Source: a virus
Length of the DNA stretch: 43,077 nucleotides
IMG/VR virus record: IMGVR_UViG_3300043399_000823
Location: 1-43,077 of that record
Direction: 5' to 3' (one strand)
Shown: positions 3,954 to 33,573 of the stretch, one piece after another
Layout of the letters: every line of letters begins with the position of its first letter
Numbering within the stretch: position 1 is the first letter of the stretch
Notes under the pieces: generated by a model
Seen by the model: the letters and a program-made list of their open reading frames with translations, nothing else
Told to the model about the DNA's origin: nothing
Databases searched by the model: none
Position numbers and translations under genes: made by a program

Positions 3954-5954
3954 TCAGGCGCCGGCGTTGAACTGACCGCCGCGCCAGTCGATGGCGCCGC
4001 AGGCGAAGTCCAGCCAGACATCGACGCTGACCGCGCCGTCCGTGCCGGGCGGGTTCGTGATGCGCGTCTGCGGCCCCTCGGCGCCAGAGAGGAAGCCGTA
4101 GACGTAGACGGGCGCGACCGCCGGGTCGGCGAACAGATACCAGTTGTTCCCGGTGATGTTCGCGTCGACGATCGGCTCGTAGGTGCCGCGGAACGGGTTC
4201 GTCGTGGCCGCCGTCGCCGGCACATACTGCGCCGACGTGAACTGCCACGCGATCGTCTCGTAGGCCGGGCCGGTCAGCAGGTAGCGGCCCGACAGGTTGA
4301 GCTTCAGCCCGTCCGGCGAGGTCCGGTTGCGCAGAGCCTGGCGCGCCGCGCCGAGGCTGGTCACGTCGATCGCGGCGCCCGAGGCCGAGCGGTTGCCGCG
4401 GCCGGTGGTGAACACCGCGCTGCCGTCCGCGAGGTTCGGGCCGGCACCGGAGCCGGTCGTCACCTGCGCGAAGGCCGTCGCGTTCTCGAAATCGAGGATG
4501 CGGCGACCGATCATGCCCGCGAAGTCGTTGAAGGCGCCGAGCTCGTCGTTGATCAGCATCTGCCGGGTTACGCGCACGCCACGGGCGTAGGTCGCCATCG
4601 TGATCTGCTCGCGGCCCTCGGAGATGGTGCCCAGCGTGATCTGGCCGCCCTCCGCCAGCGCCGACAGCGCGGGGAAATCGCCCACGCGGAGGAAGCTGTG
4701 CGGCCGGAAGTCGTTGAACGTCCGGCGCGCCATGAACATCCGATAAGTCGGCTCGGCCAGGGCGTAGTCGGACAGCAGCACCTTGTTCAGCGCGCTGGAC
4801 AGCAGCAGAGGGAAGTCGCTGGTCGAGTGGAAGGACCGCTCGGCCAGCGCCACGCGGTTGCGCGGCACGTCCCGCTCGCCGCGGGCCGCCAGCAGCTCGC
4901 GCGCCATGTCCGAGATGCGGACGCCGCTCCACTCGCGGTGGCGGTCGGTCTGCGGCTTGTAGGTGCTGCGGATCTGCACCGCCAGCGCGTCCGCCATGGC
5001 GTCGCGCAGCACCACCGGATCGTCGCCGGACGGCCCCATGCGGACGGTCTGCACCGGGCTGATGGCCGGCGCGGCGGCGCCGCCGCGGGCGCGCTCGGCC
5101 GCCACCTCGAAGGCGCGGGCGCGCACGGCGTCGACGGACAGGCCGCCGGTCATCGCCTCGGCGCGCAGCGACGCGCGCACCTCCTCGGGCAGCAGTGCGG
5201 CGGCGGCGGTCAGCACGCCGTCGATGCCGGCGAGGCGCGAACGCTCGGCGGCGATGGCCTCCTGGCGAACGGCCTCGATGTCAACGGCGGGCTGGGGAGC
5301 GGGCGCCTGCGCGCCCGGCTGGGTAACGGCTTCGGACATCCGAGCCTCCGGGTTGAGCGGCGCGACGCCGCGGGTTGAAGCTTCCGGCGTATCTGCCGCG
5401 CCGGCCGGGTCGGAACGCACCTGCGCGCCGGCGTCGGCCGGCACGGGCACAAGGGAAATCTCGTGCGGCACCCATCGCACCGCCTCGCGGACGCGCACGG
5501 GCTGCCGATCGCTCGGCGGGGTGTCCTTCCACTGGTCCACCCGGTAGCCGACGCTGATGTTCCGCAGGATGCCGGCCTGCACGTCGCGCACGATGGGCTG
5601 CACCTCGGGACGGTCGGAAAACCGCACCTTCGCGTGCCCCTTGCCCTTCTCGATCCACGCGCGCTCGACCACGCCGATCACGTCGGCGAGGCTCCACTGG
5701 CTGTGCGAGTTCAGGACCGGCGCGCCGGCGTTCAGGCGCGACAGATCGACCGCCGCGTCGGTGACGGCCAGCCGCTCCACCCACTTCTCGTTGGTCCACA
5801 CGTCGCGCCGCGTCACCTCGGCGCCCGTGGTCCACACCAGCTCGACGGTGCGGGAATCGGCGTCAAAGGTGGTCGGCTCGAATGCCGCCAGGCGCTGAAA
5901 CAGCGTGTCGGGCTCGCGCCGGGTCTCCGGCGCGTCAGTTGTCTCTGCGTCCAT
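3954..5954 (-). CDS. Prohead protease-major capsid protein fusion
   Basis: A 666-aa protein with an AGGAG site 6 bases before the ATG at 5954. Residues 1-150 look like a prohead protease domain (ERLAVTDAAVDLSRLNAGAPVLNSH, GHAKVRFSDRPEVQPIVRDVQAG, and HEISLVPVPADAGA). The stretch 150-290 is an Ala/Glu-rich helical region like a scaffold delta domain. The rest carries capsid features, including a long helix region and TYARGVRVTRQMLINDELGAF, DFENATAF and NWYLFADPAVAPVYVYGFLSG. In family terms it is one polyprotein supplying protease, scaffold and capsid shell, cleaved during maturation. His in LNSH and Ser in ISLVPVPAD are plausible catalytic residues, inferred by family pattern. It lies between the portal and the decoration gene. 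Confidence 0.85.
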   Translation of the reverse strand: MDAETTDAPETRREPDTLFQRLAAFEPTTFDADSRTVELVWTTGAEVTRRDVWTNEKWVERLAVTDAAVDLSRLNAGAPVLNSHSQWSLADVIGVVERAWIEKGKGHAKVRFSDRPEVQPIVRDVQAGILRNISVGYRVDQWKDTPPSDRQPVRVREAVRWVPHEISLVPVPADAGAQVRSDPAGAADTPEASTRGVAPLNPEARMSEAVTQPGAQAPAPQPAVDIEAVRQEAIAAERSRLAGIDGVLTAAAALLPEEVRASLRAEAMTGGLSVDAVRARAFEVAAERARGGAAAPAISPVQTVRMGPSGDDPVVLRDAMADALAVQIRSTYKPQTDRHREWSGVRISDMARELLAARGERDVPRNRVALAERSFHSTSDFPLLLSSALNKVLLSDYALAEPTYRMFMARRTFNDFRPHSFLRVGDFPALSALAEGGQITLGTISEGREQITMATYARGVRVTRQMLINDELGAFNDFAGMIGRRILDFENATAFAQVTTGSGAGPNLADGSAVFTTGRGNRSASGAAIDVTSLGAARQALRNRTSPDGLKLNLSGRYLLTGPAYETIAWQFTSAQYVPATAATTNPFRGTYEPIVDANITGNNWYLFADPAVAPVYVYGFLSGAEGPQTRITNPPGTDGAVSVDVWLDFACGAIDWRGGQFNAGA

Positions 5955-5963
5955 GGGGAACTC

Positions 5964-7484
5964 CTACTCGGCCGGCGCCGGCTCCGTGGGCTGCGGGGCC
6001 TGCGGCATGGCCGCCCCCGTCGCCGCGATCTCGACCGCCGCCACCTGCGCCGCGTCGTGCGCCGTGCCGCTCTTGGCGAGCCGGCGCGGGTCGCTGTCGA
6101 CCACCACGCCCGCCGCGTCCCGCATCGCGTCGGCCTCGGCGATCTTCGCTATGACCTCCGCATAGGACCACCCGAGCATCGCCGCCGCGTCCTGCGGCGA
6201 AAGCAGCCCGGCGCGGATCTGCATGATGATCGCCGTGATGTCCTTCAGCGGGTCCACCACCTCGGGCGCCTCGGGCGTGTGCGTGAAGCCGCCGCCGACG
6301 CGCCACAGGCCCGCCATCGCGCCGGCCCGGTCGAACGCCTCGGCCACCGGCGCGCAGAGCTGCGGCAGGAGGATCGTCCACTGCACCTGGCCGTTCAACG
6401 CGCGAAACTCGATCTTGCCCGCCCGCAGGCTGCTGTAGTTGGCGCCGGTCAGGTCGCCCGAAACCTGGTCGTAGGTCAGGCCGCCGCCTACCGCCGCCCG
6501 CTCCAGCGCGCGGCGCGCGAATTGAAGGTGCGAGCCGCCGCCGGACGGGTTCACCACCTCGATCTCGCCCGCGCCCTTCCGGTAGATGATCATGCCGGGC
6601 TCGAACGTCTCGATCACGTTGCCGGCCGCGTCAGTGACGCGACCCTCGGCGGGCGTCAGCGTCTCCTCGCCGTTGTCGGTCACGATGGCCGACATGCACG
6701 CCTCGATCTTGGCCTTCATCAGAAGCGCGGCCTCGTAGTCCGAGAGGTCGCGCAGCACCGGCAGCACCGGCGTCAGCCACGAGATGCCGCGGACCTGGCC
6801 GGGCCGCTCCTGGCGGTAGACGTGCAACACGAACTCGGCCGGCACGCGCACGGACGGGCTCTGCGAGAGCGACGGCAGCAGCGGCCACGTCTCGCCCGGG
6901 TGCCGCGGCAGCAGCCAGTAGGCCACCGGACGCCCGCGCTCGGGGTCGATCTCGACGCCCTGCATGACCGCCGCGCCGTCGAAGATGCCCGTCTTCAGCC
7001 GGTCGAGGTGGTCTGCCTCCAGCACCTGCAGCGTCAGCCCCACGGGGTTCCGCTCGGTCGGCGGCCCGGGGATCAGCCTCACGATGGCCTCGCCGTCCGT
7101 CACGACCGCGCGCATCACCAGCGCCTCGATCGCGGCCAGCGTCTTCTTGCCCTCGGCGTCGCAGGCCGTGGTTGCGGCCCAGCGGCGCCAGGCCGCGTCG
7201 CGCGCGGCGTCGTCCCACGCGCAGGTGACGCCGGTCCCCACCGCGTTCGCGGCCCAGATGTCCACCATGCGCCGGGCGAAGGCGTCGTTGCGCACCGCGT
7301 CGCGGGCGTTCCACGCCGCGCGCTGGGCGCCGGCCGTGACCTCGCCGTTCGCGCTGCTGCCGCCCGCCATGCCTGCGGACTGCCGAAACCGGGTGTCCTG
7401 CGCCGTCTGATAGACGCGGAGCCCCGTCATGCGGGCGATGCGCGCCGCGGCCCGCTGCCGCCATGTCATCCGGGCCGCCATCAC
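5964..7484 (-). CDS. Portal protein (lambda gpB family)
   Basis: A 506-aa protein whose ATG at 7484 overlaps the end of the gpW-like gene. Characteristic pieces are ARDAVRNDAFARRMVDIWAANAVGTG near the N-terminus, VLEADHLDRLKTGIFDGAAVMQGVEIDPERGRPVAYWLLPRHPG in the middle, and QVSGDLTGANYSSLRAGKIEFR. That last stretch is a well-known stretch in lambda-type portals. The dodecameric portal occupies one capsid vertex, is the docking site of the terminase and the channel for DNA. Length and gene order (terminase, gpW, portal, protease/capsid) fit well. The C-terminus is Pro/Ala-rich. Confidence 0.92.
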   Translation of the reverse strand: MMAARMTWRQRAAARIARMTGLRVYQTAQDTRFRQSAGMAGGSSANGEVTAGAQRAAWNARDAVRNDAFARRMVDIWAANAVGTGVTCAWDDAARDAAWRRWAATTACDAEGKKTLAAIEALVMRAVVTDGEAIVRLIPGPPTERNPVGLTLQVLEADHLDRLKTGIFDGAAVMQGVEIDPERGRPVAYWLLPRHPGETWPLLPSLSQSPSVRVPAEFVLHVYRQERPGQVRGISWLTPVLPVLRDLSDYEAALLMKAKIEACMSAIVTDNGEETLTPAEGRVTDAAGNVIETFEPGMIIYRKGAGEIEVVNPSGGGSHLQFARRALERAAVGGGLTYDQVSGDLTGANYSSLRAGKIEFRALNGQVQWTILLPQLCAPVAEAFDRAGAMAGLWRVGGGFTHTPEAPEVVDPLKDITAIIMQIRAGLLSPQDAAAMLGWSYAEVIAKIAEADAMRDAAGVVVDSDPRRLAKSGTAHDAAQVAAVEIAATGAAMPQAPQPTEPAPAE

Positions 7485-7717
7485 CAGCCCCGGTTGAACG
7501 CGGCGCGCGTCACGGACGGCCGGCGGGACGCCGCCGACTGCGACGCGGAGAACATCGTCTCGATCGCGCGCTCCATCTCGGCCTGCGTCCGATAGACCAC
7601 CTCACGGCCGTCGCTGAAGCGCACACGCTGGATGCCAGACGCGTAGGCCGTCGCCAGCTCGCGCGCGTCGCTCCCCGCGGCCTCGGCCCGAGCCCATGCT
7701 AGAACGGCTGCGTCCAC
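7481..7717 (-). CDS. gpW-like head-tail connector
   Basis: A 78-aa protein with a GTG start at 7717 and an AGGAGA site 5 bases upstream. After an Ala-rich first helix it has YASGIQRVRFSDGREVVYRTQAEMERAIETMF. That is the gpW pattern: a short beta hairpin (V-R-F-x-D-G-R-x-V-x-Y) followed by a helix. Lambda gpW is 68 residues and plugs the portal after packaging. It lies between terminase and portal, exactly as in lambda. Confidence 0.85.
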   Translation of the reverse strand: MDAAVLAWARAEAAGSDARELATAYASGIQRVRFSDGREVVYRTQAEMERAIETMFSASQSAASRRPSVTRAAFNRGW

Positions 7718-20968: not shown

Positions 20969-21218
20969 CCAGAGCAAGCTCACGGTGAGCGAGGCAAGCC
21001 CGGACGGCTTCGTCCTGCTTTCGCACTGCGTCGCGCACGTGATGCGGCACGGCGTCAACAAGTGGACGCTCTGCATCGGGAGCATTCAGCGCGACGTGGG
21101 CACCGGCATCAGCGTCACGCACCACCTGACTGCGGAGGACGTGTTCACGCTGGCAGATGCGTTGTTTTCTGCCTTGGCGCGTGCCGCGAAGGAACAAGAG
21201 GCTGAGGAGGCCGCCTGA
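20958..21218 (+). CDS. Hypothetical protein
   Basis: An 86-aa protein starting MALDQSKLTVSEASPDGFVLLSHCVAHVMRHGVNKW. It has a beta-rich front with HCVAH and a helical end (AEDVFTLADALFSALARAAKEQEAEEAA). It overlaps its neighbour by 11 bases in the same operon. Function unknown. Confidence 0.6.
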   Translation: MALDQSKLTVSEASPDGFVLLSHCVAHVMRHGVNKWTLCIGSIQRDVGTGISVTHHLTAEDVFTLADALFSALARAAKEQEAEEAA

Positions 21219-21219
21219 C

Positions 21220-21474
21220 ATGCCCGACACCGACACCGACGCCGCGGGCATCGCGGCTGACCGCCTGCGGTCCATCGTGGAGCGCGTCGAACGGCTGGAG
21301 GAGGAGCGCAAGGCGCTCGCCGACGACATCTCGGACATCTACGCCGAGGCCAAGGGCGCCGGCTTTGACGTGTCCGTGGTGCGCCAGATCGTGCGGCTGC
21401 GGAAGAAGGAGCCCGCCGAGGTTGAGGAGCATCAGACGCTGCTGGACCTCTACCTTCGCGCGCTGGGGATGTGA
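21220..21474 (+). CDS. gapR: GapR-like nucleoid protein (DUF2312)
   Basis: An 84-aa protein, RLRSIVERVERLEEERKALADDISDIYAEAKGAGFDVSVVRQIVRLRKKEPAEVEEHQTLLDLYLRALGM. The coiled-coil then IYAEAKGxGFDVxxxRQIxRLRK then LLDLYLxALGM is the DUF2312/GapR family nearly in full. In Caulobacter GapR is an essential small DNA-binding protein that prefers overtwisted AT-rich DNA ahead of replication and transcription, helping topoisomerases. A phage copy could manage supercoiling during phage replication or displace the host protein. The first 10 residues (DTDTDAAG) are a short acidic lead. GAGGAGG stands just upstream of the start. Confidence 0.93.
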   Translation: MPDTDTDAAGIAADRLRSIVERVERLEEERKALADDISDIYAEAKGAGFDVSVVRQIVRLRKKEPAEVEEHQTLLDLYLRALGM

Positions 21475-21948: not shown

Positions 21949-22018
21949 CGCACCGCAGCGCGTCGCATCGCTCCGCTCCGCGACGCAGTGCCGCGCATCG
22001 CCCTGCAACGCAACGCCC
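21949..22018. repeat. CGCNN pentamer array, left block (14 units)
   Basis: Fourteen uninterrupted pentamers of the form (C/T)GCNN in strict 5-bp phase (70 bp), where NN changes (AC, AG, GT, AT, TC, TC, GA, AG, CG, AT, CC, AA, AA, CC). It is followed by TT and then, 27 bases on, the start of the next gene. The last units (TGCAA, CGCAA, CGCCC, TT) recur at the end of the third block. A 5-bp period cannot come from codons. Confidence 0.9.
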
Positions 22019-22046
22019 TTTCAACGACACACCACGGGAGACACTA

Positions 22047-22640
22047 ATGCAAGCATCCGTCGCCACGCTGACCATCCGGGGCCTTACGCCTCTTTCGCAG
22101 AGCCGCGGGCACGACGAGCCCATGCTGGAGGGCGAGAGCCGCGACGCCTATGACGCCCGGACATGGCGCAGCAAGCTCAACGTCGCCACGCGCGGCGGCG
22201 AGCCCACCGTCATCATCCCGGCGCACGGGCTGCACCAGGCCATCGCCGCCGCTGCCAAGTATTCCAAGCGCCAGATCCCGGGCCAGGGCAAGGCGACATG
22301 GACGGCCAAGTTCCTGAGCGGCATCGCGCTCCTGGAAGACCCGTCGCTCAACCTCGATCCGGCCACGGTCGGGCACGTCACCATCAGCGCGAACGCGGAC
22401 GGCGTGCGCGGCAGCGGGAAGCGCGTGCCGCGCCGGTTCCCGCAGATCCCCGAGTGGTCGACCACCTTCGAGGTCTACGTCCTCGACCCGATCATCACGC
22501 AGGAGGTGTTCCGCGAGATGGTGGAGATCGCGGGCATGTTCATCGGCTTGGGCCGTTTCCGCCCTGAGAAGGGCGGCACGAACGGCCGTTTCAGAATCGA
22601 GCGGCTGGATTGGGTCGACAACCGCAAGCTGGCCGCTTGA
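22047..22640 (+). CDS. Conserved phage protein flanked by pentamer arrays
   Basis: A 197-aa protein, MQASVATLTIRGLTPLSQSR onward. It contains DAYDARTWRSKLNV, VIIPAHGLHQAIAAAAKYSKRQIPGQGKATWTAKFLSGI, RRFPQIPEWSTTFEVYVLDP, and a Gly-rich ending IGLGRFRPEKGGTNGRFRIERLDW. A conserved protein of this build is common in tailed phages near recombination genes; its function is not known to me. The glycine-rich loop GLGRFRP-GG-GRF and the opening strand with TPL are loosely like RAMP/Cas7-type RNA-binding folds, which is only a visual impression. It is enclosed on both sides by CGCNN arrays. The start at 22047 follows a GGGAG site. Confidence 0.75.
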   Translation: MQASVATLTIRGLTPLSQSRGHDEPMLEGESRDAYDARTWRSKLNVATRGGEPTVIIPAHGLHQAIAAAAKYSKRQIPGQGKATWTAKFLSGIALLEDPSLNLDPATVGHVTISANADGVRGSGKRVPRRFPQIPEWSTTFEVYVLDPIITQEVFREMVEIAGMFIGLGRFRPEKGGTNGRFRIERLDWVDNRKLAA

Positions 22641-22646
22641 TGACCG

Positions 22647-22721
22647 CGCTCTGCATCGCGTCGCAGCGCTGCGCAGCGCCGCGCAGCGCGTCGCTTCGCC
22701 CCGCTTCGCCGCGCAACGCTC
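22647..22721. repeat. CGCNN pentamer array, middle block (15 units)
   Basis: Fifteen consecutive (C/T)GCNN pentamers in one phase (75 bp) starting 7 bases after the stop of the 197-aa gene. The changing NN includes TC, AT, GT, AG, TG, AG, CG, AG, GT, TT, CC, TT, CG, AA, TC. It runs into a short C-rich stretch and two hairpins. Confidence 0.9.
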
Positions 22722-22727
22722 CCCTCA

Positions 22728-22749
22728 CCCACCCGGTTCGCCGGGTGGG
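22728..22749. repeat. TTCG-loop hairpin between the arrays
   Basis: Arms CCCACCCGG and CCGGGTGGG (9 bp perfect) around TTCG, a very stable RNA hairpin. There is no T run after it, so it is not a clear intrinsic terminator. Confidence 0.8.
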
Positions 22750-22754
22750 GCTGG

Positions 22755-22772
22755 GGAACGGTGCGCCGTTCC
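22755..22772. repeat. Second hairpin between the arrays
   Basis: Arms GGAACGG and CCGTTCC (7 bp perfect) around TGCG, five bases after the first hairpin. Together the two stems split the pentamer region into two arrays. Confidence 0.75.
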
Positions 22773-22787
22773 GCCTGCGCGCCACAG

Positions 22788-22897
22788 CGCCGCGCAGCGC
22801 AGCGCGCCGCGCCGCGCCGCATCGCATCGCTGCGCTTCGCTCCGCTTCGCAGCGCATCGCCCCGCGCCGCGCCGCAGCGCCCCGCAACGCAACGCCC
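22788..22897. repeat. CGCNN pentamer array, right block (22 units)
   Basis: Twenty-two uninterrupted CGCNN pentamers in one phase (110 bp). It ends CGCAA CGCAA CGCCC TT, the same ending as the left block, 26 bases before the next ATG. The block is the longest of the three. Confidence 0.92.
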
Positions 22898-22923: not shown

Positions 22924-23424
22924 ATGTTGACCACTGAGCTATCGGCCGATGCCCGCGCCGTGGCCGATGTTCTGATCGCCACGCCGGTCGGCGAGCTTGC
23001 TTCGCTGCCGGCGTTGTCCGCCGCCATTGGGCGCGACATCACGGCCTGCCGCCACGTCCTGGCGACCGCTCGCCGTGTCGCCGAGCGTGAGGCCGGCGCC
23101 GTCTTCGCGTGCGAGCCGCGCGCCGGATACCGCCGCGTCAGCGCCGAGGCCGCCGCCCAGGTGGTCGGGGGCGCCGCGCGCGGCCACATCAGGCGCGCGG
23201 CCCGGCGTGCCCGTCGCTCCATCGTGGAGGCGACGAAGCGCGCCAACGACCTCACGCCCGAGGCCATGCGCCGCGCGTCGGCCGAGATCACGGTCCTGGG
23301 CATGATGGAGCACCTGTCGCGCGACGCGGTGGCACTGCCGAAGGCCGACGCGCCCGCCAAGCCCGAGCCGGTCGCCATCGCCGCGCGCCGGCTGTTCGGC
23401 ATCGCGGACGGGCCTGCGGCATGA
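22924..23424 (+). CDS. Hypothetical protein downstream of the arrays
   Basis: A 166-aa protein starting MLTTELSADARAVADVLIATPVGELASLPALSAAIGRDITACRHVLATARRVAEREAGAVFACEPRAGYRRVSAEAAAQ. The first 70 residues look like a winged helix (a three-helix body with a GYRR wing). The rest is a basic helix (RGHIRRAARRARRSIVEATKRAND) and a disordered tail. A GGAG lies upstream of the ATG. It probably binds DNA or RNA; no family is recognised. Confidence 0.7.
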   Translation: MLTTELSADARAVADVLIATPVGELASLPALSAAIGRDITACRHVLATARRVAEREAGAVFACEPRAGYRRVSAEAAAQVVGGAARGHIRRAARRARRSIVEATKRANDLTPEAMRRASAEITVLGMMEHLSRDAVALPKADAPAKPEPVAIAARRLFGIADGPAA

Positions 23425-23738
23425 GCGGCGCCACCACCTTCCCCGCCGCCGTGCGCGACCTCGCCCTCGTCGCTGCCTACGCCGTCAGCAAGCGCGACCC
23501 GCGCATCGCGGCGGCCTGCGAGTGGATGGACCGCGCGCGCGACCATGAGGCTTGCGCGCTGCGCCAGCCGCCGGGGTCTGCGCAGCGCGAGATCGCGCGG
23601 GACCGGGCGAACCACGCCGCGGCCATTGCCAACGTCTACACGCTATTATCTGAGGGCGAGCCGGCCGAGGCGCGGCGCTGGGTGCAGCGCGCACGGCTGT
23701 GGCGGCAGCGGCTGCGGGATGCGGGGGCGTGGGAATGA
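23421..23738 (+). CDS. Hypothetical helical protein
   Basis: A 105-aa protein, MSGATTFPAAVRDLALVAAYAVSKRDPRIAAACEWMDRARDHEACALRQPPGSAQREIARDRANHAAAIANVYTLLSEGEPAEARRWVQRARLWRQRL. Helical, with regularly placed Arg and Trp. ATGA overlaps at both ends of the operon. Function unknown. Confidence 0.6.
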   Translation: MSGATTFPAAVRDLALVAAYAVSKRDPRIAAACEWMDRARDHEACALRQPPGSAQREIARDRANHAAAIANVYTLLSEGEPAEARRWVQRARLWRQRLRDAGAWE

Positions 23739-24205
23739 GCGGCGCCGCCAGCCTCACCGCCGGTCTGCACGCCGCAGCCGAGCCGCTGCTATCGTGCGAC
23801 CACGCCGCCGCGCCGCTGCGGTTTGCGGCGTCGGGCCTGTCCGACGACCTGACGGCCTGCATGGCCGGCATCGTGCCGCTGATCCTCGAATGCGAGGCCG
23901 CCGCAGAGGCCATGGAACGCCACGCGAAGCGGCTGCGCACGGCGTTGGCCGACGCGATGGACACCGCCGGGGCGACGACAATCAAGACGGGCCACCACAC
24001 GGCCAGCGTCAGCAGCGGGCGCGCGGCGGTGGTCATCACCGACCCGGCCGCCATCCCGCCCGAGCTCATGCGGACGCCGGCGCCGGTGCCCGACAAGGCC
24101 GCCATCGGCGCGCTGCTGAAGGCGGGCCACGCCGTCGAGGGCGCCGTCCTGGGCAACGGCGGGCAGCCCATTCTGACAATCAAACCGAGGAGTCCGAAGT
24201 CGTGA
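23735..24205 (+). CDS. Siphovirus Gp157-like protein
   Basis: A 156-aa protein. A helical front (PLILECEAAAEAMERHAKRLRTALADAMDTAGATTIKTGHHTASVSSGRAAVVITDPAAIPPELM) leads to PDKAAIGALLKAGHAVEGAVLGNGGQPILTIK. The run IKTxxHTxSVxxGRxxVVITDxxxIPxEL followed by PDKxAIxxxLKxGxxVxGAxL is the Gp157 family pattern, linked to phage resistance in Streptococcus thermophilus and found next to recombination genes. The next gene (RecT-like) starts with an overlapping GTG. Confidence 0.8.
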   Translation: MSGAASLTAGLHAAAEPLLSCDHAAAPLRFAASGLSDDLTACMAGIVPLILECEAAAEAMERHAKRLRTALADAMDTAGATTIKTGHHTASVSSGRAAVVITDPAAIPPELMRTPAPVPDKAAIGALLKAGHAVEGAVLGNGGQPILTIKPRSPKS

Positions 24206-25041
24206 ACGCACTCACCACCCGCGGCGGGACCGCCTCACTGGCGCCGCAGACCTGGGCCGAGGCGCGCCAGTTCGCGGAGATGCTGGCGCAGTCATCGATG
24301 ATCCCGAAGGACTACGCCGGGAAGCCGGCCAACATCATGGTCGCCGTCCAGTGGGGCGCCGAGGTCGGGCTTGGACCGCTGCAGGCGCTGAACGGCATCA
24401 GCGTCATCAACGGCCGCCCGTCCATTTGGGGCGATGCCGCCCTGGCGCTGGTCCGCGGGCACTCCGCGTGCGAATGGCTGCGCGAGGGCATCGCCGGCGA
24501 GGGCGACGCGCGGCACGGCTGGTGCGAGGTGAAGCGGCGCGGCTCGCCCGAGCCCGAGCGCCGCGAGTTCAGCGTCTCGGACGCCAAGCGCGCGGGCCTG
24601 TGGGGCAAGGCCGGGCCGTGGCAGCAGTATCCCGATCGGATGCTCCAGATGCGCGCCCGCGGCTTCGCCATCCGCGACGTGTTCCCGGATGCGCTGCGCG
24701 GCGTGATGACCGCGGAGGAGGCGCAGGACATGCCGGCCGAGCCCCGCGACGTGCCCAACCTGGCGGCGCCGCCGCCCGGCTCGATGCGGGAGGCCGTGGC
24801 GCAGATGGCGCGTCCGCCCGCCGAGGACCGCGTGTCTGCCGGCGTCTCGGCGCTGGTCGAACGCATCGCCGCCGTCGCAGACCTCGCCAGCCTGGAGGCG
24901 CTGACTGGAGAGCCGGCCATCGTGAAGCAGCGGGCATGGCTCGCGGACAACCGGCCGGACGAGGCGGAGCGGATCACCCGCGCGGTGAATACCGCGCTGG
25001 AGCGGGTGGCCGATGACGCGGAGCCCGGCGCCGATGCCTGA
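24202..25041 (+). CDS. RecT-like single-strand annealing protein
   Basis: A 279-aa protein from a GTG at 24202 with a GAGGAG upstream. Core: TWAEARQFAEMLAQSSMIPKDYAGKPANIMVAVQWGAEVGLGPLQALNGISVINGRPSIWGDAALALVRGH, then FSVSDAKRAGLWGKAGPWQQYPDRMLQMRARGFAIRDVFPDAL. Phage proteins of this type are usually annotated as RecT-superfamily recombinases. It would anneal single-stranded DNA during phage recombination or replication. Partner nuclease: none in this operon, though VRR-NUC and PD-(D/E)xK proteins are encoded on the other side. The C-terminal 70 residues are an acidic tail. Confidence 0.75.
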   Translation: MNALTTRGGTASLAPQTWAEARQFAEMLAQSSMIPKDYAGKPANIMVAVQWGAEVGLGPLQALNGISVINGRPSIWGDAALALVRGHSACEWLREGIAGEGDARHGWCEVKRRGSPEPERREFSVSDAKRAGLWGKAGPWQQYPDRMLQMRARGFAIRDVFPDALRGVMTAEEAQDMPAEPRDVPNLAAPPPGSMREAVAQMARPPAEDRVSAGVSALVERIAAVADLASLEALTGEPAIVKQRAWLADNRPDEAERITRAVNTALERVADDAEPGADA

Positions 25042-25255
25042 CCCCTCGACCCTGCGCCGCCACGCCGCCGAGTTGCGCGCCGCGGCGGCCGCGCTGGACG
25101 GGCTGGCCGAGACGCTGGCCGCCGGCGTGGTGGTGCCGCGGCCGGCGGCGGCTGGCACCAGGACGCGCGACGGGGTGGCCGTCGTGGAGCTGGGGTATCC
25201 GGTGGAGGCAGCGGCCGTGGAAGCGATGCGGGTGCTGGGGGTGGGGGATGGGTGA
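25034..25255 (+). CDS. Hypothetical protein
   Basis: A 73-aa protein, MPDPSTLRRHAAELRAAAAALDGLAETLAAGVVVPRPAAAGTRTRDGVAVVELGYPVEAAAVEAMRVLGVGDG; an upstream ATG at 25013 is the alternative start and overlaps the RecT-like gene more. A helix then two strands; no motif. It is coupled to the excisionase-like gene. Confidence 0.5.
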   Translation: MPDPSTLRRHAAELRAAAAALDGLAETLAAGVVVPRPAAAGTRTRDGVAVVELGYPVEAAAVEAMRVLGVGDG

Positions 25256-25499
25256 GGCGCGATGGATTGATCGCCGCGACCTGGCGGCGCGCCTGTCGAT
25301 CGACCGGAGCGCCATCCCGCGCCTGCAACGCCGGGGCAAGCTGCCGCCGCCGTCCTATCACCTTGGCCCCAAGTCCCCGCGCTGGGACGTGGAGGCGGTG
25401 GACGCGATGTTTGCTGGCAGGGTAGCGTCGGCCGCTCCATCCATTGACGACTTGGTGCAGGACGCCGCCGATGCCATTCTCCAAGGCCGGGCCGCCTAG
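25248..25499 (+). CDS. Excisionase-like DNA-binding protein
   Basis: An 83-aa protein, MGEARWIDRRDLAARLSIDRSAIPRLQRRGKLPPPSYHLGPKSPRWDVEAVDAMFAG. This is the winged helix of AlpA/Xis-type excisionases: a short first helix (DRRDLAARL), a recognition helix (SAIPRLQRRGKLPPP) and a wing (GPKSPRWDVEAVDA). Its 3' end overlaps the integrase start by 29 bases, as in many integrase-excisionase pairs. It would tilt the integrase toward excision. Confidence 0.78.
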   Translation: MGEARWIDRRDLAARLSIDRSAIPRLQRRGKLPPPSYHLGPKSPRWDVEAVDAMFAGRVASAAPSIDDLVQDAADAILQGRAA

Positions 25500-26502
25500 A
25501 GAGAAGATCGTCCGCCGCACGCTGGCGGACGGCACGGTCAAGGAATACCGCTACCGCCTGCCGCCGAAGCGAGACGCCACGGCTGCCGCTCCGAAGATCC
25601 TGCCCGGCAGCGTGGACGCCATGCTGGAGGCATGGCGCCGCAGCCCGGAGTGGTCCGACCTCTCGCCCCGGACCCGCGAGAACTACAGCATCTATGTGCG
25701 GGCACTTGCGCCGATCGGCCGCGCGCCGGTCGCGGACGTGAAGCGCCGGCACATCATCACCTTGCGGAACGCCATCGCCGCGAAGCGCGGCAACGGCGCC
25801 GCGACCGGCTTCATGCGCGCGACCTCGGCGGCCTGGGCCTGGGCGATGGACAACGACCTGGCCGAGACGAACCCGGCGCACCGGGTCAAACCGCTGAAGC
25901 GCGGCACCCTGCCGGCCTGGACTGAGGAGGTGCTAGCCGCCGCATTGGCCCGCCTTGATGAGTCGCTGCGCCGGGTGGTGGTGCTGGCGGTCTACACGGG
26001 CCAGCGCCGCGGCGATCTGTGCGCGCTCACCTGGTCCGCCTTCGACGGCGCCACCATCCGCCTGCGGCAGCAGAAGGAGCGCGGCCCTGAGGCCGGCAAG
26101 CGCGAGCTGGTCATCCCGTGCCACCGCGCGCTGCGGGAGGAGCTTCTGCGCTGGCGCGCCGACCGCGGCGACGCGGTGACGATCCTGGTGCAGCCCCGCG
26201 GCAAGCCGTGGACGGACACGCACCTGTCGCGCGAGCTGGGCAAGGCGGTGAAGGCGCTGGGCCTCGGCCGCTTCACGCTGCACGGCCTGCGCAAGCTGGC
26301 GGCGGTGCGGCTGGCGCAGGCCGGGTGCAGCCCGCACCAGATCGCGGCCATCGGCGGCTGGCGCAGCCTGTCCATGGTGCAGCACTACACCGCGGCGGCG
26401 GACCAGCAGGATCTCGCCCAGGCGGCCGTGCATCGGCTGGAAGTCGCTGGCCAGAAAACGGGCCGCACAAATGGAAAATCTCTCGGTAAAACAGGAGGAT
26501 AG
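25471..26502 (+). CDS. int: Tyrosine recombinase (phage integrase)
   Basis: A 343-aa integrase starting at the ATG at 25471 inside the excisionase gene. The N-terminal arm-binding region has LADGTVKEYRYRLPPKRD. The core-binding domain follows (SVDAMLEAWRRSPEWSDLSPRTRENYSIYVRALAPIG). The catalytic domain shows the Arg in VYTGQRRGDLCALTW, HGLRKLAAVRL (His-x-x-Arg), and GGWRSLSMVQHYTAAADQQD with the nucleophilic Tyr. The position usually held by a second His is Trp (GGW), which is common. It marks the phage as temperate. attP is expected just downstream. Confidence 0.95.
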   Translation: MPFSKAGPPREKIVRRTLADGTVKEYRYRLPPKRDATAAAPKILPGSVDAMLEAWRRSPEWSDLSPRTRENYSIYVRALAPIGRAPVADVKRRHIITLRNAIAAKRGNGAATGFMRATSAAWAWAMDNDLAETNPAHRVKPLKRGTLPAWTEEVLAAALARLDESLRRVVVLAVYTGQRRGDLCALTWSAFDGATIRLRQQKERGPEAGKRELVIPCHRALREELLRWRADRGDAVTILVQPRGKPWTDTHLSRELGKAVKALGLGRFTLHGLRKLAAVRLAQAGCSPHQIAAIGGWRSLSMVQHYTAAADQQDLAQAAVHRLEVAGQKTGRTNGKSLGKTGG

Positions 26503-31930: not shown

Positions 31931-33573
31931 GCGCTGTAACCCTCGACGGTGACGACGGTGGAGACGGCCCGCCCGACGACGGCATTGGATCGGACGGCGA
32001 CGGACAGCGCGGTATCGGCCAGCACCGCACGCGAGACGGAGGCCCGCGCGCGCACGACGCGCGTCACGATTCCCGGCATCGCGTAGAGCGTGCCCACGCC
32101 CGCCAGCGTCGCCGAAGCGGACGCCGCGCGAGTGGCCGCGGCGGTCAGCGCACCCTCGCCGGTAAGGCTGGCCGTCGCGCCGCGGACGCGCAGCGCAGGG
32201 GCGGAAAGGACGCCGGCGCCATGCAGCGCGGCGGCGATGGCGCGTAGGCGGGCCGATGCCGCCGCCAGGTCGCCCGCGCCGGTGAGGGCGGCGGCCGTCG
32301 ATCGACTGCGGCCGGTGGCCGCGGTCAGCGAGCCCGAAGCATCCAGCGCGGCGGCGCCGGTGGCCGAGAGCGTGACGGTAGCGGCCAGGGCGCCGGCGCC
32401 ATTGAGCGCGGCCGTGCCGCCCCGCAGGCGGGCCGTGGCGGCGTCCAGCGTGCCGGCGGCGGCGAGGGTGGCCCCGACGCCGCGCGCCCGCGTAGCCGCG
32501 GCGGCGAGGGCGGCAGCGCCCTCCAGGGCGGCGGCGGCGGCGCGCGACCGCGAGGCGGAGGCAGCGAGGTCGCCCGCGCCGGTCAGCGACGCCGTGGCGC
32601 CGCGGGTCCGGGCAGCGGCGACCGCTACGGTGCCGCCACCAGCGAGCGCGGCGGATACCGGCCTAGCCCGGCCTGCGTTGACGGCGAGCGCGCCGGCGCC
32701 GGTCAGCGCGGCCGATGCCGGCCGGGCGCGGCCAGCGTCCGCAGCGAGGACGCCCGCGCCGTCCAGGGCAGCGTCGGCCGACCGGCTGCGCGTCGCCTCG
32801 GCGGTCAGCGTGCCGGCGCCGTCCAGGGCAGCGGATGCGGCTGCGGCGCGGGTCGCGGACGCGGCGAGCGTGCCGGCGCCGGTCAGCGCGGCGGACGCCG
32901 CGCCGGGCTGGACGCGAACGGCGTTGGCGACCAGAGCGCCGGCGCCGGTCAGCGTCGCCGCGGCCGGCCGGTCGCGCGTGCCGCCAGCGGCGAGTGCGCC
33001 GGCGCCGTCGAGCGCGGCGGATGCGGCAACTGCGCGGCCCGCCGTCGCGGACAGCGCACCAGACGCGGCCAGGGCGGCGGATGCGTCCCTGCTGCGGCCG
33101 GCTGCCGCGGCGAGGGCGCCGGCTGCGGCCAGCGTCGCCCCTGCGGCGCGGTCTGCTGCTGCGGTAGCGGCCAGGGTGGCAGCGCCGACCATCGCGGCGG
33201 ACGCCGGCCGCTCGCGTGCGGCAGCGGCATAGAGCGCACCGTCGGAGGTCAGCGCCGCGGCGCCAGCCCGGGAGCGCGCTGCGGATGCGCCCAGCGCGCC
33301 CGCAGCGGTGAGCGCGGCATCGGCGGCACGGTCGCGCGTCGCGGCTGCGGCGAGCGCGGCGGATGCGGTCAGCGCGGCCGATGTGGGCCGCTCGCGCCCA
33401 GCCTGCGCCGCGAGCGTGCCCGCCGCTGCCAGGGAGGAAGACGCGGCTCGCGCTGCGCCGGCCGTGGCCGTCAGCGTGCCCGCGCCGGTCAGCGCGGCGG
33501 ATGCGGCCTTCGCGGTCCCGCCGTCCGGTAGCGCCGAAAGTGCGGTCTGCGAAAGCGCGCCGAAGCCGAGCAT
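31927..33573 (-). CDS. 57-bp-repeat tail-associated protein (Ala-rich)
   Basis: A 548-aa protein built of about 25 tandem units of near 19 residues, form SAAL-GAG-LAA-A-R-R- (for example ALTAAGALGASAARSRAGA, ASAALDGAGALAAGGTRDRP). Each has a hydrophobic/Gly LxGAGxL turn and an RxR end. The last 52 residues (IVTRVVRARASVSRAVLADTALSVAVRSN) are a different domain. The repeats suggest a beta-solenoid or stalk. Position between the fibre genes and the Ig-like gene points to a virion surface protein. Repeat number can change by recombination. No function is known. Confidence 0.7.
   Translation of the reverse strand: MLGFGALSQTALSALPDGGTAKAASAALTGAGTLTATAGAARAASSSLAAAGTLAAQAGRERPTSAALTASAALAAAATRDRAADAALTAAGALGASAARSRAGAAALTSDGALYAAAARERPASAAMVGAATLAATAAADRAAGATLAAAGALAAAAGRSRDASAALAASGALSATAGRAVAASAALDGAGALAAGGTRDRPAAATLTGAGALVANAVRVQPGAASAALTGAGTLAASATRAAAASAALDGAGTLTAEATRSRSADAALDGAGVLAADAGRARPASAALTGAGALAVNAGRARPVSAALAGGGTVAVAAARTRGATASLTGAGDLAASASRSRAAAAALEGAAALAAAATRARGVGATLAAAGTLDAATARLRGGTAALNGAGALAATVTLSATGAAALDASGSLTAATGRSRSTAAALTGAGDLAAASARLRAIAAALHGAGVLSAPALRVRGATASLTGEGALTAAATRAASASATLAGVGTLYAMPGIVTRVVRARASVSRAVLADTALSVAVRSNAVVGRAVSTVVTVEGYSA
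32080..33530. repeat. 57-bp tandem repeats in the Ala-rich gene
   Basis: The DNA repeats with the protein at about 57-bp period; many neighbours share blocks such as GCGCCGGTCAGCGCGGC. The array is about 1.4 kb long, roughly 25 units, with two slightly longer or shorter units. This is coding DNA with no spacer structure. Confidence 0.8.

Follow-up and report, generated by a model that had tools for sequence, protein, structure and literature searches.

The window analysed here is a 43,077-nt stretch of viral DNA (IMG/VR record IMGVR_UViG_3300043399_000823, positions 1 to 43,077) with a GC content of 72%. It contains a locus with the order array, vipr, array, hairpin element, array, vap, in a single sense throughout:

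21949-22018, plus strand: array 1, 14 YGCNN units ending TGCAA CGCAA CGCCC; predicted guide RNA (vrRNA), 5' of vipr
22047-22640, plus strand: vipr, 197 aa, RAMP/Cas7-like, with the glycine loop (G-loop) IGLGR170FRP; phrog_4652
22647-22721, plus strand: array 2, 15 YGCNN units; predicted vrRNA, immediately 3' of the vipr stop codon
22722-22787, plus strand: inter-array element with the hairpin CCCACCCGG-TTCG-CCGGGTGGG plus another stem; putative tail of the vrRNA or processing element; RNA fold z -2.7
22788-22897, plus strand: array 3, 22 YGCNN units ending CGCAA CGCAA CGCCC
22924-23424, plus strand: vap-like gene encoding a predicted winged-helix protein of 166 aa; most loci have a homologue close to vipr

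The counts of 14, 15 and 22 in-phase pentamers in the original prediction were exact, as was its count of three units, over the three arrays together, with TGC instead of CGC. The ending it described as common to the left and right blocks, YGCAA CGCAA CGCCC TT, was also confirmed for arrays 1 and 3; array 2 ends in CGCAA CGCTC and then runs into the hairpins. When the 43-kb window was simulated with Markov models of order 2 and order 4 (200 runs), the longest YGCNN tract was usually 4 units and at most 6-7; the next longest same-sense tract of the window itself has 4 units. Some arrays are partly self-similar. When the middle base was left free (C-N-C/NN, the rule of the relatives described below), array 3 extended to 24 units from 22778, and the final 10 bases of the inter-array element may therefore be array units. 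Judged by its length, array 3 may offer room for two overlapping vrRNAs. Arrays 1 and 3 have no obvious structured tail and both run towards genes, while the element 3' of array 2 forms a stable structure comparable to the inter-array hairpins of relatives; a scan against Rfam, hammerhead included, returned no RNA at the gathering threshold. Homologous arrays are found in relatives at the position equivalent to array 1.

The enclosed 197-aa protein had no family in Pfam and NCBIfam scans and was assigned by PHROGs to phrog_4652, a group of unknown function. A profile of 33 homologues compared with solved chains matched 36pp_D, the Vipr protein of Escherichia phage SUSP1 (E 3.8e-5), with the glycine loop inside the alignment. 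It was this PDB sequence match that led to Vipr; literature searches by the repeat motif found nothing. Aligning the 197-aa family with the SUSP1 Vipr gene product in hhalign gave an E value of 5.6e-7 over 123 columns, and the AlphaFold2 model of the protein (pLDDT 88) retrieved Csm3/Cas7-type RAMP chains in Foldseek (best E 1.5e-6). Based on the two matches to SUSP1 Vipr and the RAMP-like model, the protein belongs to the Vipr family of RAMP proteins, and as a stand-alone RAMP with an RRM core and a G-loop it displays one of the features by which Vipr systems are recognized. Its fold and glycine-rich loop are similar to those of the RAMP proteins of Class 1 CRISPR-Cas (Csm3/Cas7), and by analogy with these an RNA-bound filament would be expected for the window Vipr. 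Unlike Class 1 CRISPR-Cas, which comprises a repeat-spacer array and several cas genes, the window has pentamer arrays, no CRISPR repeat-spacer array and no other cas genes (none turned up when the flanking genes were scanned against Pfam, PHROGs and NCBIfam), and its periodicity is 5 nt as opposed to the 6 nt of the Class 1 thumb spacing (PMC13142463). Acetobacteraceae were rejected as hosts, the gene being present in 1 of 300 genomes.

VIPR (Viral Interference Programmable Repeat) was described in a bioRxiv preprint (April-June 2026; PMC13142463) as a phage RAMP protein acting with guide RNAs (vrRNAs). A vrRNA consists of 9-16 pentamers, each a GGY triplet plus two variable letters (NN), and has a structured, invariable tail at its 3' end (PMC13142463). 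Double-stranded DNA is recognised by the NN letters, a single base being passed over from one NN pair to the next, and this guide role was demonstrated experimentally for SUSP1; the complex represses transcription, with competing phages and satellites as natural targets (PMC13142463). Seven types are distinguished, with "GGY/NN motifs, or a related consensus" (PMC13142463). When the SUSP1 locus was read as the window had been, its GGY/NN arrays lay in the sense of vipr, and it thus served as a positive control and as a pointer to the likely transcribed strand in the window. The window resembles the type II VIPR of SUSP1 and of a Pseudomonas fulva prophage in its homologous small phage RAMP protein, its flanking same-sense phased pentamer arrays (triplet plus NN), the length of these arrays (~9-16 units and longer) and its Vap1-like neighbour. 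It differs in having CGC/NN (C-N-C in its clade) rather than GGY/NN, Arg170 rather than the Asp of SUSP1 in the G-loop, and hairpin elements between arrays; moreover, targets are known for VIPR whereas none were found for the window arrays. The locus was not filed as type II VIPR because it lacks the GGY/NN consensus, and although intergenic arrays of a fixed triplet and variable NN are characteristic of VIPR, CGC qualifies solely as a "related consensus" in the wording of PMC13142463.

A further VIPR feature, the vap accessory gene, is represented by the 166-aa neighbour, homologues of which gave 58 hits over 67 distinct loci among the matches listed, usually directly 3' of vipr. Its similarity to SUSP1 Vap1 in hhalign was modest (E 5e-5, probability 67%), and its AlphaFold2 model (pLDDT 93) received weak support from Foldseek; from the secondary structure of the model, a winged-helix protein is predicted. 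The phage or prophage origin that is typical, though not universal, of VIPR is indicated by the virus record and by nearby integrase and RecT-like genes.

Protein searches recovered 50 loci at first and later at least ~85 in all among the matches listed. Phased pentamers were present beside the gene, defined as within ~1.5 kb, in 64 of 69 distinct loci among these matches. The original prediction had tied its own fate to an enrichment of pentamers beside homologues in other phages, and it stood because they do occur there. Strongly phased windows (26 of 30 positions fixed) occurred at 1.83 per kb beside the gene compared with 0 in 392 kb of more distant DNA of the same loci, and 315 of 317 had the sense of the gene. 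Conversely, an IMG/VR scan for ten YGCNN units that made no use of the protein returned 119 stretches, ~50 of which encode a homologue (E < 1e-3). Some of these loci are distant relatives that were matched on the opposite strand and, read in the sense of the gene, carry mostly the canonical GGC/NN. A long YGCNN tract in a locus without a vipr gene (L089) was set aside as a simple TGYGC microsatellite. Arrays of CGC or CAC type were also found in phages of 53-58% GC. The richest locus, L021, has 14 arrays with different NN series on both sides of vipr (4980-7560, ~150-bp spacing), separated by a covarying two-hairpin element with no Rfam match at the gathering threshold. Across 14 inter-array elements from seven loci (L006, L018, L021, L024, L025, L034 and L041), a common two-hairpin structure was obtained with 99% of cells paired; four pairs showed changes on both sides, and the pairing was lost when the partners were slid. 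Since a single locus supplies half of the rows, this covariation is supportive rather than decisive.

Relatives without YGCNN carry other phased triplets: CAC/NN (L028, L030, L035, L037, L038, L042, L046 and L307), CTC/NN (L040, L308, L312 and L329), CGA/NN (L036) and mixed C-N-C (Rhizobium phages). The AT-variant tracts that had been guessed to lie near the same protein thus exist as CAC and CTC. Positions 1 and 3 of the units are C in 95-99%, the middle base alone differs, and NN is far less constrained. Glycine-loop residue 170 was Arg in all 51 CGC proteins and Gln in all 8 CAC proteins among the matches listed, and in the same set it was the sole alignment column to separate the two fully, the next best overlapping by 16%. 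At Arg-type loci the middle base was G in 80%, T in 13% and A in 7% of units, and at Gln-type loci it was A in 97%. Arginine with guanine and glutamine with adenine are textbook side-chain/base pairs. Mapping the triplet labels onto a tree of 67 distinct proteins required at least 10 changes, and for CAC at least 3; independent switches between CGC and CAC number ~4, two of them on well-supported branches, and with so few a sign test for residue 170 is unable to reach significance. The proposed residue-170 rule draws on perfect separation and chemistry, with few independent events. Where distant homologues have Asp or Glu at the equivalent position, the arrays are GGC or GGT, as in SUSP1 and in four genomes found by protein alone (L401, L402, L404 and L405); a fifth genome found in this way, L400, combines Arg with CGC. 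Exceptions to the rule occur outside the C-N-C clade, for example L126 (Gln with GGC). In L050 (Rhizobium leguminosarum Vaf-46), L043 and L044, vipr lies next to several C-N-C/NN arrays that are degenerate, with an inconstant middle base and a fixed triplet that seems looser. GCA/NN arrays, another scaffold consensus, occur in L111, L162, L052, L061 and L097, which encode distant homologues with the G-loop GFGDFRP or GFGDLRP.

Overall, the window very likely contains a phage-encoded VIPR locus with a CGC/NN scaffold, the arrays of which are guide RNAs. The basis for this assignment is the RAMP fold, the Vipr homology, the linkage of arrays and gene, their strand concordance, the vap homologue and a triplet that changes in step with residue 170. 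By analogy with SUSP1, each array would be transcribed as a vrRNA and coated by Vipr subunits, probably one per pentamer, which would hold the fixed C-G-C triplet and leave the two variable letters exposed. The exposed letters would then base-pair with double-stranded DNA belonging to a competing phage or prophage, one base remaining unread between pairs, and the bound complex would repress its target. On balance, we favour the idea that the scaffold letters form an exchangeable, protein-read code in which residue 170 selects the middle base (Arg taking G and tolerating U, Gln taking A), giving closely related phages mutually orthogonal guide scaffolds. The variable fixed triplet (CGC here; CAC, CTC and CGA in relatives) and its separation by residue 170 appear to be new; the C-N-C consensus may already be listed in the supplement of PMC13142463, the main text of which makes no mention of the residue-170 correlation. 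VIPR has been proposed as the ancestor of CRISPR, and its code with a one-base skip is new to biology. In this clade, code letters that were supposed to be constant change between close relatives, and a residue that perhaps sets them comes into view; if true, the residue-170 rule would explain how a RAMP protein reads its repeat, and orthogonal systems could be predicted from sequence alone.

Searches for natural targets gave null results. A search through 2.65 Mb of unique phage DNA with 241 guides (85 loci), allowing skips of 0-3, yielded no excess over 12 shuffles at any skip. Exact 10-unit scans of IMG/VR with arrays 1 and 2 returned no match, and 8-unit seeds of the three arrays returned 8, 44 and 16 stretches with extensions at chance level; the seed taken from array 3 codes for a short AAGIL(K/N)(D/E)K-like peptide common to unrelated genes. 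Array 3 also matched L105 perfectly over nine pairs in the wobble register, but this was discarded as not significant against shuffled guides. Single guides compared with several hundred bacterial genomes (Xanthobacteraceae, Rhizobiaceae and Alphaproteobacteria) yielded nothing beyond the control. Read as first and second codon positions, the NN series gave a z of 2.1 in the predicted phase and 1.8 and 1.3 in the others, well below simulated coding targets in what is a weak test. The targets of metagenomic phages whose hosts are unknown may be unsampled. Since no natural targets were found, we infer an RNA-guided function in the window clade by homology to SUSP1.

Alternatively, the arrays could be sites in DNA or RNA at which just the enclosed RAMP protein docks, serving autoregulation or as a packaging mark, with NN merely unconstrained. 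We consider this improbable: the missing targets, the weakly coding-like NN composition and the placement of arrays on both sides of vipr would fit such a role, but the homologous SUSP1 system uses its NN letters as guides by experiment (PMC13142463), and autoregulation would not call for several arrays in a locus, as many as 14 in L021, that differ in their NN series. The original prediction had itself proposed a docking site covering 5 nt per subunit or a leader RNA element, with the enclosed gene and a RecT-like protein as candidate binders. Because the product of the enclosed gene is an RNA-binding protein of the RAMP type, both the 5-nt spacing per subunit and the RNA element are plausible and this candidate binder was well chosen; the NN letters, however, are most likely information in the form of guide letters, as opposed to spacing within a docking site. 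The RecT-like protein fared differently. Single-strand annealing sites occupied at 5 nt per monomer would suit a RecT-like gene ~650 bp downstream, yet SUSP1 has the same architecture, with equivalent arrays beside vipr and no RecT annotated in the 4.4-kb region retrieved, the arrays are linked to the RAMP gene, and changes of the triplet track a residue of the RAMP protein; RecT is not needed to explain the arrays, and this role is scarcely credible. Equally negligible is tandem-repeat slippage or a compositional artefact, which the high GC content and partial self-similarity might suggest but which is opposed by Markov controls of at most 7 units, the lack of any phased window over 392 kb from the same contigs, the freely varying NN and the arrays of 53-58% GC phages.

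A phage-encoded VIPR locus is thus the preferred reading, and several other features were noted around it. Directly upstream lies a gene for a GapR-like nucleoid/DNA-binding protein (21157-21474, plus strand; Pfam PF10073, E 9e-32). The RecT-like annealing protein is encoded downstream of vap (23545-25041, plus strand; phrog_561, E 3e-55), and past it follow a small DNA-binding/excisionase-like protein (25248-25499) and then an integrase (25444-26502). Further along the window, imperfect 60-bp tandem repeats occur at 32645-33134 (~8 copies, within a large open frame) and at 33366-33508 (~2.4 copies).
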